Shown one piece after another: positions 2,902-61,202 of a DNA stretch of 64,000 nucleotides. Origin of the DNA: a bacterium BMS3Abin14 (GTDB lineage: Bacteria > BMS3Abin14); NCBI GenBank assembly GCA_002897695.1, contig BDTG01000046.1, positions 1-64,000 of the forward strand, written 5' to 3'. The stretch's first letter is position 1, and each line of letters begins with the position of its first letter. The notes under the pieces were generated by a model. It had not been told where the DNA came from. It ran no database searches and was given only the letters and a program-made list of their open reading frames with translations. A program made the translations under genes and the position numbers.

Positions 2902-3948
2902 TTACTGCAGGGAATACCACGTCCCCTTGCCGGCGCCGTGCTGCGCCAGGCGGCCCTGCTTCACCAGGCGGCGCAGATGCACCTTGAGGGTGTTGCGGTT
3001 CGCCCCGGTCAGGGTGACGGCCTCGGCCATCGTCAGCCTCCCCCGCTCCTTCACCACCTGAAGGATCTCCGAGGACAGGGCCGGAACCCTGTACAGCTCC
3101 TTTTCGCGATCAAGCTTCCTCGCCAGGTTATCCTTTTGCGCCTTGAGTGCCTTTAAGAAGAAAAGGGTCCAGTGGTTCAGGTTCTCGTCCCTTGTCCTGA
3201 TCCCCGCTTGGGAGGACCTGAGTGCCTGGTAATACCCATCCTTGTTCTCCTCCACCATGCGCTCAAGAGAACTATAGGGAACATATCCATACCCGTTATG
3301 GAGCAGCATGAGTGTGGTCAGAATACGGGACAGGCGCCCGTTGCCGTCCTGGAATGGGTGGATAGCCAGGAAGTGGATCACGCCGGCGGCGATGACGAGC
3401 AGGGGATGAAGATCATCCCGGTCAAAAGCGTCGTTTACGCTTTTAGTCAATCGGGTCATCAATCCGGGAGTGGCGAACGGCGAGGCGGTTTCAAACACGA
3501 TCCCCAGGCTTTTCCCTTCGCTGTCGAAGGCTTCTACATGATTTGGATTTTTCTTGTACTCACCCCGGTGCGGCGCATCCCGGACGCTGTGGCGAAGCAG
3601 GATTCCGTGGAGCTGCTTGAGGTGGTTCTCGTCCAGCGGAATATGCTCCCAGGACTCGAATACCGTGTTCATTGCCTCGGCGTACCCGGCCACCTCCTCT
3701 TCGTCCCTGGACCTGAAGGAGGTGGTGTCCAGACCTCTCAGGAGAGCTTCGACCTGCCCATCCGTGAGCCTGGCTCCCTCGATACGGGTGGATGAACCGA
3801 TGGACTCGATGGAGGAAACCCGGCGCAGCCTGGCCATGGCGTCGGGCGGCAGGTGATCGAGCGTGGTCCACCGCCCCTTAAACTCGTCGATCTCGGCGAT
3901 GAGCTTGAGAACCTCCGGGGTTATGGTGAAAACGCGGGCATGGATCAT
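2902..3948 (-). CDS. Fic family protein (putative AMPylase) with self-inhibition motif
   Basis: This 348-residue Fic protein carries the full catalytic motif HPFQDGNGRLSR at residues 197-208. Fic enzymes usually transfer AMP from ATP to a hydroxyl side chain of a target protein. An inhibitory helix motif of the (S/T)xxxE(G/N) type, SSTRIEG, lies N-terminal (52-58), placing it in class II (N-terminal inhibition). The C-terminus (about 290-348) forms a winged helix-turn-helix (TMAEAVTLTGANRNTLKVHLRRLVKQGRL), so it may regulate its own promoter. AAGGAG stands eight bases before the ATG. It is complete in length for this Fic/wHTH architecture. No partner gene adjoins; the target is unknown. Confidence 0.9.
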   Translation of the reverse strand: MIHARVFTITPEVLKLIAEIDEFKGRWTTLDHLPPDAMARLRRVSSIESIGSSTRIEGARLTDGQVEALLRGLDTTSFRSRDEEEVAGYAEAMNTVFESWEHIPLDENHLKQLHGILLRHSVRDAPHRGEYKKNPNHVEAFDSEGKSLGIVFETASPFATPGLMTRLTKSVNDAFDRDDLHPLLVIAAGVIHFLAIHPFQDGNGRLSRILTTLMLLHNGYGYVPYSSLERMVEENKDGYYQALRSSQAGIRTRDENLNHWTLFFLKALKAQKDNLARKLDREKELYRVPALSSEILQVVKERGRLTMAEAVTLTGANRNTLKVHLRRLVKQGRLAQHGAGKGTWYSLQ

Positions 3949-4429: not shown

Positions 4430-5118
4430 AATGCTCCTCTTATCCTTTCAGGCAGCCTTTTACAGGATTCCCTTGTCCCCCTCGTTCTCAATATTCCTGC
4501 AGATGATCACATAAGGTCTGAAATCTGGGAATCCGGGGGACGGTTTCATGAATCGCTTCAGGCATATCATAAGTAAAAGCCTGTCAATGGGCAAGAGATC
4601 CTGGTGAAAAATGGATTACAGCTTCCCATGAGCCCGAGGCGGCCCTTCGCCACAAAGCATATTGTTTCACCACCCGTTTGTCACGCTTTAGCGTGACTCG
4701 CTGGAGGCACGGAGTTCCCGTTGGACGTTGGACCCGCTTTATCTACCGATGCGGGTATAAAGGACGGGTTTCGGGTTAAACGCGAAGCGAAGCTGGTTCA
4801 CGGCGAAGCCGAGCGCTCAAACCCGGAAGCCGTCGCTAAGTGCTTAGGTAAGAACAGGACCTAGTTCCTGGTGCCTGGTGCCTAGGGAAATCAGTGCTTA
4901 GTGCCTGGTGCCTTGGAAAGTAAACTACCAGGAACTAGGGCTAGGAACTAGGAACTGGGTCCTAGGACCACCCTGCGCATAAACTGCGCGCAGGGGTGCC
5001 GATTACATTCCACGGTGCGCAAATTGTAACCTGCAGGATAAATACGAATATCTACCCATGACCCATGAAAGCATGAATTTGCATTATATTACAATGACAT
5101 ACGATGGTGGAAAAGAAG
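4430..5118. other. non-coding, repeat-rich stretch
   Basis: No gene is supported over almost 700 bases. Visible structure includes an 8-bp hairpin GTCACGCT/AGCGTGAC at 4680-4697 and short GCGAAGC words around 4780-4815. From 4860 to 4970 there is a block of repeated CCTGGTGCC, TAGTTCCTGG and AGGAACTAGG words. In that block CCTAGTTCCTGGT (4860-4872) and ACCAGGAACTAGG (4927-4939) are exact 13-bp inverted repeats. The rest looks like unconstrained intergenic DNA. Confidence 0.5.
4860..4970. repeat. inverted/tandem word block (CCTAGTTCCTGGT)
   Basis: A 13-bp exact inverted repeat (4860-4872 and 4927-4939) brackets two copies of a GTGCCTGGTGCCT word and is followed by CTAGGAACTAGGAACT. Related words (TTCCAAGTTCCAGG) occur at 8868-8880, between the VTT gene and arsS. 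The origin is unknown; it looks like intergenic expansion rather than a CRISPR. Confidence 0.4.
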
Positions 5119-5135
5119 TTGGCACGGGGGTTGCT
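5119..5135 (+). promoter_or_regulatory. sigma-54 (RpoN) promoter
   Basis: TTGGCAC, five bases (GGGGG), TTGCT matches the -24/-12 consensus exactly: GG at 5121-5122 and GC at 5133-5134 are separated by ten bases. The predicted transcription start is near 5146. There is no protein gene on the plus strand downstream, but a strong intrinsic terminator follows within 100 bases, so the promoter most likely serves a small RNA. No enhancer site for an activator was identified. Confidence 0.7.
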
Positions 5136-5145
5136 ATAACCGAGG

Positions 5146-5232
5146 GTGAAGGCTCCTTTCTCACCCCGGTTGCACGGCAGCGGCAAACCCTTTCTCCCCT
5201 CCTTTAACCCTGCCGAGCGACCGGGTTTTTTT
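5146..5232 (+). ncRNA. candidate sigma-54-dependent small RNA
   Basis: The unit runs from the predicted sigma-54 start to the end of a T7 run, about 87 nt. The 3' half is a 16-bp stem (5165-5180 with 5210-5225, two mismatches: CCCGGTTGCACGGCAG against CTGCCGAGCGACCGGG) followed directly by seven T. Its 29-nt loop (5181-5209) is pyrimidine-rich and contains CCCCTCCTTT, complementary to AAAGGAGGGG-type ribosome binding sites. This is the hallmark of small RNAs that block translation initiation. The RNA would end ten bases before the 3' end of the convergent glycosyltransferase gene. Existence and targets are inference; promoter, stem and loop are seen. Confidence 0.55.
5165..5232 (+). terminator. 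intrinsic terminator of the candidate sRNA
   Basis: This is a 16-bp GC-rich stem with two mismatches, a 29-nt loop, and TTTTTTT at 5226-5232. On the minus strand the same stem is not followed by a T-run, so it acts as a terminator for plus-strand transcription only. It may still help end the minus-strand operon that stops at 5242. Confidence 0.6.
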
Positions 5233-5241
5233 GCGCCCGGG

Positions 5242-6567
5242 TCACCCGATCAAACGACGGTACGTCCTCGCGAGCCGTTCGGGCCCCACCCCGAGGACAT
5301 AGAGCCAGGTGACAAGCTGATTGACGATGGTCACCCGGAAAACACCTTTCTTCCTCCACTTCCTGGCGGAGGTCACGGCGGTCTCATCGAGAAGGACCAC
5401 CCGGCCCTGACCGCGAAGGTGCCGCATGAGCTGGTAGTCCTCCATGATGGGCTGATCCGGGAAACCTCCGGCCAGCCGGAAGGCGGGCGCCCTGACGAAG
5501 ATCGCCTGATCCCCGAAGACGATCCCCAGACGTGAGCGCCGATTGGCAAGCCGCTCGACGATGCCCATGGCAGCGGACCGGTAATCCACCGCGAAACGGA
5601 AAGCCCCCGCGACCACGTCCTCCCTGATCATGGCTCTTCCGATGGCCGTCTCGAACCCGTCCGGCAGGGACGTATCGGCGTGGAGAAACAGGAGGATGTC
5701 CCCGTGGGCAACCTCCGCCCCGCGGTTCATCTGGGCAGCCCGGCCAGGTTGGGAATCGACGACATGGATCTTATGTGCCAGGCAGGCCTCCAGGGTCCCG
5801 TCGGTGCTTCCGCCATCGGAAACGATCACCTCGACCCCGGGAACCGATTCCAGCCTTTCAAGCAGGGAATCGATCCACTCCTTTTCATTGAAGGTGGGGA
5901 TGACGATGGAAATGGTAAGCTTCCGGTGCGCCTTCGGCGCCGCGGCGGCGGCCTTCTCCCAGTGGACAAGGTCCTCCGGCCCGTCAACATCGTCGAGGTC
6001 ATCCAGCAGCCCAAGGTCGAGACCTGTTTCCGCCACAGCATTGATCGTTTCGGACAGAACGTTCCCGGTGCCCCACGGGATGTCCCTGAAAACTGCGTTG
6101 AAAAGGCCCTCCGGAGCTCCCGACCGGATGCCGATGAGGTAGTAGCCCCCATCGGTGGACGGCCCCAGGACGATGGGGTTGTCCTCCAGAAGGACCAGGG
6201 CCTCATCCACGTGGCCCCGGCCAAGCTCCGGGCAGTCCGTGCCGATAATAACGACCTTCCGGTACCCGCTCCCGAACGACTCCCTGAATGCCCGCTCCAT
6301 CCTTGATCCCAGGTCGCCGTCTCCCTGAGGCACATAGTCCACTTCATCCCCCAGCCAGTTCTTCACGGCTGCCGGGTCCCCATCCGTGAAGCGGACCTGC
6401 ATCTCCACAGTGCCGGCCCCATGGAGCTGAACTGCGGCCAGCGTGTGTTCGGTCATATCCCGGGAAAGATCGGCCGCACCCTGCTCACCGAGGACGGGGA
6501 TCAACCGGGTCTTTGCTTTTCCCGGGACTGGATATCGGGTAAAAAGGATCAGGAGGGAGGAGGGCAT
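5242..6567 (-). CDS. fused arsenosugar-type glycosyltransferases (TIGR04282 + TIGR04283)
   Basis: Two families that are usually separate genes are joined in 441 residues. The N-terminal half (1-205) is a DUF2064/TIGR04282 nucleotidyltransferase-fold glycosyltransferase: LILFTRYPVPGKAKTRL, IIGTDCPEL at 107-115, GPSTDGGYYLIG at 135-146. After an Ala-rich linker (206-215) comes a GT2/TIGR04283 domain: ISIVIPTFNE 219-228, DGGSTDGT 251-258, FLHADTSLP. Both families are annotated with arsenosugar biosynthesis because they travel with the radical SAM protein ArsS. That gene is in this operon, with a flavoprotein and a VTT protein between. The fusion suggests the two act in consecutive steps; the sugar acceptor is not known from sequence. 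Confidence 0.85.
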   Translation of the reverse strand: MPSSLLILFTRYPVPGKAKTRLIPVLGEQGAADLSRDMTEHTLAAVQLHGAGTVEMQVRFTDGDPAAVKNWLGDEVDYVPQGDGDLGSRMERAFRESFGSGYRKVVIIGTDCPELGRGHVDEALVLLEDNPIVLGPSTDGGYYLIGIRSGAPEGLFNAVFRDIPWGTGNVLSETINAVAETGLDLGLLDDLDDVDGPEDLVHWEKAAAAAPKAHRKLTISIVIPTFNEKEWIDSLLERLESVPGVEVIVSDGGSTDGTLEACLAHKIHVVDSQPGRAAQMNRGAEVAHGDILLFLHADTSLPDGFETAIGRAMIREDVVAGAFRFAVDYRSAAMGIVERLANRRSRLGIVFGDQAIFVRAPAFRLAGGFPDQPIMEDYQLMRHLRGQGRVVLLDETAVTSARKWRKKGVFRVTIVNQLVTWLYVLGVGPERLARTYRRLIG

Positions 6568-13226: not shown

Positions 13227-13575
13227 TTTTTCTCCTTGTTAACAAAATTACCTCAGAATTATTTTCCATGTTTCAGGAGCTGCCGCGTTATCATCGCGAA
13301 CAATTTCCAACGCATAGCGATCCCGCCATTATTTACGAGATTGCCGCGCTCCTTTCAGTCGCTCGCAATGACTGTGCTTAGCTCTCCGCGTCTCCGTAGC
13401 CGCTTTTTTCCATTGGACATTGCTCCAAGGCATGCCGAAGGGATTATATGGAAAAACCCGAACAAATCAAGGAGAAGAAACGAGGCACCTGCCTCTGATG
13501 CCTTTTTTCCCGCATGAACCCGTGATATTCTGGTGAAAATGACGGGATATCGATACACAATGAAAGGAGGTGCCC
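13227..13575. other. gene-free spacer with a dispersed repeat
   Basis: Nothing here reads as coding. It contains the repeat at 13337-13372 and, next to glucokinase, a strong AAAGGAGG ribosome binding site at 13563-13570. No clear -35/-10 pair was found. Confidence 0.5.
13337..13372. repeat. dispersed GTCATTGCGAGCGACTGAAAG-type repeat
   Basis: The word GAGATTGCCGCGCTCC...CTCGCAATGAC, read on the other strand as GTCATTGCGAGCGACTG, is a widespread intergenic repeat type in environmental bacteria. Partial relatives in this window lie at 8974-9005 and 52065-52096, with a fragment near 2583. Confidence 0.5.
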
Positions 13576-19191: not shown

Positions 19192-19249
19192 TGATTTACT
19201 TGACAATCCTGCCTTTTCATGCGAGTCACACAACATGGGACAAAGGTTG

Positions 19250-19335
19250 TCCTGCGTTAGGGGTGCTCGGGTTTCCGGGCTGAGAACAGACCCTTACGAA
19301 CCTGATCCGGATAATGCCGGCGAAGGGAAACGGGA
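19250..19335 (+). promoter_or_regulatory. TPP riboswitch (THI element)
   Basis: The thi-box signatures are all present in order: GGGGTGC (19260-19266), GGGCTGAGA (19277-19285), ACCCTTACGAACCTGATCCGG (around 19290-19310), ATAATGCCGGCGAAGGGAA (to about 19329). This aptamer binds thiamine pyrophosphate. It is followed within 35 bases by an intrinsic terminator that ends two bases before thiG, so ligand binding should end transcription of the thiamine operon. Confidence 0.92.
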
Positions 19336-19367
19336 TCAGATACACCGGATCAAAGGTGATTTATTTG

Positions 19368-60959: not shown

Positions 60960-61202
60960 CTGCGCCTCCTTATTCCCGGGGGTCATACCCCTTCATTTCA
61001 GCCCCTGGCATTCATCCTATCTTTCCTGCCTTTTTACGGCAATACCTTTTGGTTCCGGTAACCTCGATGCTTCGATACCTTCACTCCCCCTTACTCCCAT
61101 ACCGGCAAGGAGTGTAGAGATGAGTGGTTCCCTATGAACCGGAAATATTATACAGTCGGCCCATGAGTGTTCCCGGCATAGAGGACAGGACAGGCGGCTT
61201 GG

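Follow-up and report, generated by a model that had tools for sequence, protein, structure and literature searches.

A conserved candidate sigma-54-dependent small RNA with an anti-Shine-Dalgarno-like loop in a small uncultivated bacterial phylum

The sequence analysed here, referred to as the window, is a stretch of 64,000 nucleotides from a bacterium BMS3Abin14 (assembly GCA_002897695.1, contig BDTG01000046.1, positions 1 to 64,000). On its forward strand, a sigma-54 promoter of the -24/-12 type, TTGGCACGGGGGTTGCT (TTGGCAC-N5-TTGCT), is located at 5119–5135 and is followed by a predicted small RNA of 87 nt (5146–5232). The RNA is neighboured by a convergent gene on the reverse strand (5242–6567), which encodes a DUF2064/glycosyltransferase-2 protein and lies outside the unit. 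The promoter had been recognized in the original prediction, and this is borne out: TGGCAC-N5-TTGCT at 5120–5135 is the sole zero-mismatch sigma-54 site (TGGCAC-N5-TTGCW) in the 64 kb window, and it is conserved in all eight known copies of the unit. The window also contains a gene for a Fic/DOC-family protein (2902–3948), with a small HTH antitoxin-like ORF (1289–1603) and PIN-like and AbrB-like ORFs (2016–2518) nearby, these small ORFs being named from their translations, and a TPP riboswitch (19249–19345), whose score of 66.6 bits is above the Rfam cut-off.

Transcription is predicted to start at 5146, counted 12 nt after the GC of the promoter. Close to the 5' end, the RNA carries the element GAAGGCTCCTTTCTCA (5148–5163), which includes CTCCTTTCT, is invariant in 8 of 8 copies, and is predicted to form a weak 5-bp hairpin (-0.6 kcal/mol). 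The two arms of the terminator stem (5165–5180 and 5210–5225) enclose a 29-nt loop, CGGCAAACCCTTTCTCCCCTCCTTTAACC (5181–5209), nearly invariant and predicted to be fully unpaired, in which the putative anti-Shine-Dalgarno core CCCCTCCTTT occupies positions 5196–5205. A T7 tail (5226–5232) completes the intrinsic terminator, in agreement with the unit of about 87 nt originally proposed. According to fold and alignment, the RNA has a single stable hairpin, with the loop CCCCUCCUUU. The size of the loop had been predicted correctly, while the stem, described as 16 bp, consists of 15 pairs plus one A.A mismatch, and it begins 19 nt after the predicted start instead of some 30. The fold energy is modestly below that of shuffled sequences (z -2.06, with 7 of 200 shuffles as good). 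A scan of the window found no Rfam family above its cut-off in the region of the RNA; the best match under relaxed settings was to the Betaproteobacteria toxic small RNA (RF02278; PMC4603805), a weak likeness in loop and terminator which, at 18.2 bits (E 0.11), is far below the 50-bit cut-off.

A DNA search located another copy, 91% identical, elsewhere in the genome of the window (G000:C45), and six of the 11 other family genomes proved to have a single copy (E values between 1e-21 and 1e-42 for these seven), giving a total of eight copies in seven of 12 genomes, which are all the genomes of the phylum in the collection. The covariance model built from the eight copies found the same eight places (E 1e-23 to 1e-26), in a covariation search of the kind suggested as a check. 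The aligned copies show compensatory changes in the stem at pairs 7–9: the stem varies (U-A, C-G or U-G at pair 7; G-C, G-U or C-G at pair 8; C-G, G-C or G-U at pair 9), yet it pairs throughout. Promoter, predicted start, the 16-nt 5' element GAAGGCUCCUUUCUCA and loop are fixed across the alignment; the predicted +1 is always 1–2 nt ahead of GAAGGCTCC, and the loop GGCAAACCCUUUCUCCCCUCC is constant except for one A missing in the G001 copy. The DNA flanking the unit has diverged between copies. The DUF2064/glycosyltransferase-2 neighbour is shared with the G001 copy, and the remaining copies adjoin other genes; therefore, conservation is not due to the end of an adjacent gene, an explanation that would have counted against the prediction. 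Outside the family, the covariance model did not find the RNA in about 180 sampled genomes, where the stricter filtering applied may cost weak matches. When 85,000 species were scanned with a two-part pattern, the only hits were three members of the family and two others, evidently due to chance, with neither promoter nor stem; viral sequences, scanned for the neighbour protein and the RNA pattern, gave no match. We are highly confident that the gene is real, and its reading as a sigma-54 small RNA is very likely right; at the level of the DNA sequence, the promoter architecture, the terminator and the conservation of the unit are evident.

Upstream of the promoter, a de novo motif search found two dyads with the consensus GYGCA-N5-TGCRC in each of the eight copies, with a total score of 322, whereas shuffled upstream DNA reached no more than 188. 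In the window, putative activator dyad 1, CCCTGCGCATAAACTGCGCG, is on the forward strand at 4971–4990 and starts at -175, and dyad 2, TGCGCAAATTGTAACCTGCA, is on the reverse strand at 5016–5035 and starts at -130; the two dyads are mutually opposite in orientation in seven of the eight copies. The dyad starts are near -163 and -120 in six copies and about one helical turn farther out, at -175/-130, in the window copy and its G001 orthologue, so that in every copy the sites fall within the 80–200 nt from the predicted start expected of sigma-54 small RNA genes. When the interval from -56 to -43 was compared among the eight copies, the IHF consensus was found at exactly this position in six of them (perfect in four, with one mismatch in two), and it was unrecognisable in the window copy and the G001 copy. 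As far as can be read from the DNA, the arrangement is the one classically seen in sigma-54 promoters served by a remote activator. All 12 family genomes encode RpoN, and they have 10–21 sigma-54 activators each, 20 in the genome of the window. NtrC dyads read TGCAC...GTGCA, and an NtrC site was rejected as the identity of the motif because the variants found here read GTGCA...TGCAC. Just upstream of the dyads, the window shows short imperfect repeats of the CCTAGTTCCTGGTGCCTGG type (4860–4970).

In G009 (1.59 Mb read) and G000 (1.2 Mb read), no further dyad pair was found beside any sigma-54 site, and their activator may therefore act mainly or only on the small RNA genes. As for other sigma-54 sites, a perfect one near position 60965 of G000:C33 stands just ahead of a gene for a type IV pilin-like protein (GFTLIELM), and two near-identical ones, TGGCATGTTCCTTGCT, near positions 661479 and 1097253 of G009:C1, both have a leader of one and the same kind after them; a ferredoxin-like gene lies downstream of the first. 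The sequence GGGAGGGGACAAAGGG occurs many times in G010 and G006, which belong to one genus, and looks like a dispersed repeat.

The best explanation of the locus, and in our judgement a probable one, is that a gene standing by itself encodes a trans-acting small RNA which needs no Hfq and blocks translation by pairing with Shine-Dalgarno sequences. The two dyads, lying about 120 and 163 nt upstream of the start (for the window copy, 130 and 175), would be bound by a dedicated enhancer-binding protein, the DNA would be bent, in most copies by an IHF-like protein, and RNA polymerase with sigma-54 would produce an RNA of 83–88 nt ending at its own terminator. This RNA would expose two C/U-rich elements similar to the 16S tail, located respectively at its 5' end and in the open loop of the terminator, which would pair with the Shine-Dalgarno regions of target mRNAs, and ribosome loading would thereby be blocked. 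Both conserved elements do resemble the general sequence of the 16S rRNA 3' tail, ...CCUCCUUUCU..., which may not be exactly that of the host, and an Hfq gene was found in none of the 12 family genomes. While transcription of the RNA, its activator and signal, and Shine-Dalgarno pairing are what we infer from these features, the original proposal of a sigma-54 small RNA with an anti-Shine-Dalgarno loop is sustained as regards promoter, activator sites and loop, which are conserved in all copies, and its pairing with ribosome binding sites is plausible. We consider the anti-Shine-Dalgarno mode of action likely, if unproven.

Possible targets were sought in parts of two genomes (G000 and G009), with gene starts assigned by a simple rule, so that a real target could be missed. 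Duplex energies of the 5' element and the loop against start regions gave no conserved hit beyond shuffles among 375 G000/G009 orthologue pairs, and for the 5' element the correlation of energies between orthologues was 0.03, compared with 0.07 for shuffled elements. The search of the loop against start regions, which had been recommended as a further check, speaks against the prediction, average pairing being no better than with shuffles of the same composition. The 8–9-mers shared between the start regions of the two genomes were few and gave weak leads only, one of them being GAAAGGAG at -16 of a CoA-transferase-like gene, alike in G000 and G009. Complementary 12-mers of the 5' element showed no consistent enrichment over the reversed control, and 12-mer and 16-mer complements across the 12 genomes included no conserved site outside the small RNA itself among the matches listed. 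In the start regions of activator genes (parts of two genomes), no orthologue pair showed good pairing in both genomes. Glucokinase, originally put forward as an example of a target, was rejected as a specific one: the window gene has AAAGGAGG (at 13563) as its Shine-Dalgarno sequence where the G009 orthologue carries GGCGGAGG, and AAAGGAGG occurs in the window at chance frequency (4 found, 3.8 expected).

A loop and a 5' element that are nearly invariant, yet for which a conserved mRNA target was not found, would also fit a non-coding RNA that acts by binding a protein, as a sponge or scaffold, and not by pairing with mRNA, and CrcZ-type sigma-54 small RNAs are indeed known protein sponges. 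However, both elements are C/U-rich and similar to the 16S tail, which favours Shine-Dalgarno pairing, and inspection of the sequence by eye revealed no GGA loops of the CsrA type. We therefore regard protein binding as an unlikely function of this RNA.

The genomic context raises another alternative. In six genomes, a gene for a secreted protein lies 224–820 nt downstream of the small RNA on the same strand. Five of the six members of this protein match Phenol_MetA_deg; it was modelled as a beta-barrel (mean pLDDT 67), the best structural matches of the model being FapF and the COG4313 outer-membrane channel, and in the genomes read further its gene is followed by those for a class V aminotransferase and serA. 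Barrel gene and small RNA co-occur exactly, seven genomes having both and five neither (n = 12), an outcome with a chance of 1 in 792 if the genomes were unrelated; in fact they are related, and the majority of those with neither are incomplete. Position, strand and co-occurrence would all suit a sigma-54-driven leader in which a regulated terminator governs the outer-membrane barrel gene. On the other hand, a conserved -35/-10 promoter belonging to the barrel gene itself, TTGACATC...TA.TTT, lies between the small RNA terminator and the start of that gene (five genomes inspected), which makes the small RNA a separate unit, and the distance from RNA to barrel gene differs almost fourfold. In addition, the window copy and its G001 orthologue both abut the convergent gene, away from the barrel gene, and can therefore act only as free RNA. 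The barrel gene of G001 is cut by a contig end (G001:C11:3-167), and a second small RNA copy of that genome may be hidden there or missing from the assembly. Taken as a whole, a leader function appears quite improbable.

Two other explanations are very poorly compatible with the data. If the unit were a short mRNA, its peptide would begin MKAPFS, and three copies (G000a, G000b and G004) do have an in-frame ATG or GTG. The other copies, however, have ACG or GCG at the start position, the frame is disrupted by 1-nt indels in the loop, and a ribosome binding site could not be accommodated, since the codon is the very point at which the predicted transcript starts; this reading is hardly credible. 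That a promoter-like site stands by chance ahead of an ordinary terminator, a view to which the only modest significance of the fold by itself might lend itself, is in essence refuted by the comparative evidence, since the unit and its activator sites are conserved in eight copies at different places.

Returning to a trans-acting RNA that pairs with ribosome binding sites, the linked barrel gene keeps a strong AAGGAGG, and the energy of its pairing with the small RNA is ordinary (percentiles 17–57). A response to a nitrogen, envelope or stress signal is unproven, the exact co-occurrence with the outer-membrane protein gene being the only hint. More speculatively, and doubtfully at present, the family could possess a sigma-54 activator dedicated to this RNA alone, and the RNA, through two mimics of the 16S anti-Shine-Dalgarno sequence and with no involvement of Hfq, could act as a broad brake on mRNAs with strong Shine-Dalgarno sequences (or on the linked outer-membrane protein) instead of having one target.

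In contrast to the Qrr RNAs, which act with Hfq, the RNA described here comes from a bacterial family in which Hfq is absent from 12 of 12 genomes; CrcZ, for its part, sequesters Hfq/Crc. In its design, the RNA is closest to known examples in two respects. The first is the anti-Shine-Dalgarno loop. NfeR1, of the alpha-r14 family, is a trans-acting small RNA that is independent of Hfq, as would be expected here given that no Hfq gene was found in the 12 genomes, and it blocks the ribosome binding site of ntrB; its anti-Shine-Dalgarno motifs are ultraconserved and unpaired while the stems vary, as in the present family (PMC10746234). However, NfeR1 has 123 nt and three hairpins with CCUCCUCCC on each (PMC10746234), whereas the RNA in question has about 87 nt, one terminator hairpin with CCCCUCCUUU plus the 5' element, and no Rfam match.

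The second respect is transcriptional control. The qrr genes of Vibrionaceae, of which several copies are possible, have a sigma-54 promoter and two upstream dyads for an NtrC-type activator, and in its style the LuxO dyad TTGCAWWWTGCAA broadly resembles the dyads found here (PMC10162802); both the dyad (GYGCA-N5-TGCRC) and the RNA are nevertheless different, and neither the window scan nor the relaxed scan of the region gave a match to the Qrr Rfam family. Pseudomonas CrcZ and CrcY likewise have sigma-54 promoters, with CbrB subsites and an IHF site between subsites and promoter (PMC6296734), an arrangement similar to that of the activator sites here and, in the six of eight copies where it is recognisable, of the IHF-like site, although the sequences are unrelated. 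A precedent for RpoN-dependent small RNAs with an anti-Shine-Dalgarno motif is CJnc230 (FlmE) of Campylobacter jejuni (98/88 nt), whose motif is putative; unlike the RNA reported here, it is processed from the flgE transcript, and its anti-Shine-Dalgarno CCUU is single-stranded between two hairpins (PMC11187230). Finally, Dv_sRNA2 of Desulfovibrio vulgaris is a mapped target of the response regulator DVU0679 (PMC3333781), whose gene it adjoins; the likeness is one of regulation. The kind of small RNA is known, while the family appears to be new and undescribed.

The present results provide a fully legible control region of a small RNA in a small uncultivated phylum, known here from a dozen genomes. 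As we read it, the RNA would join the promoter logic of Qrr and CrcZ to the anti-Shine-Dalgarno loop design of alpha-r14, in hosts without Hfq, and would thus bear on the question of how small RNAs find their targets without a chaperone. Through its activator sites and its link to an outer-membrane gene, the family offers direct handles on the signal to which the RNA may respond and on the targets of the RNA.
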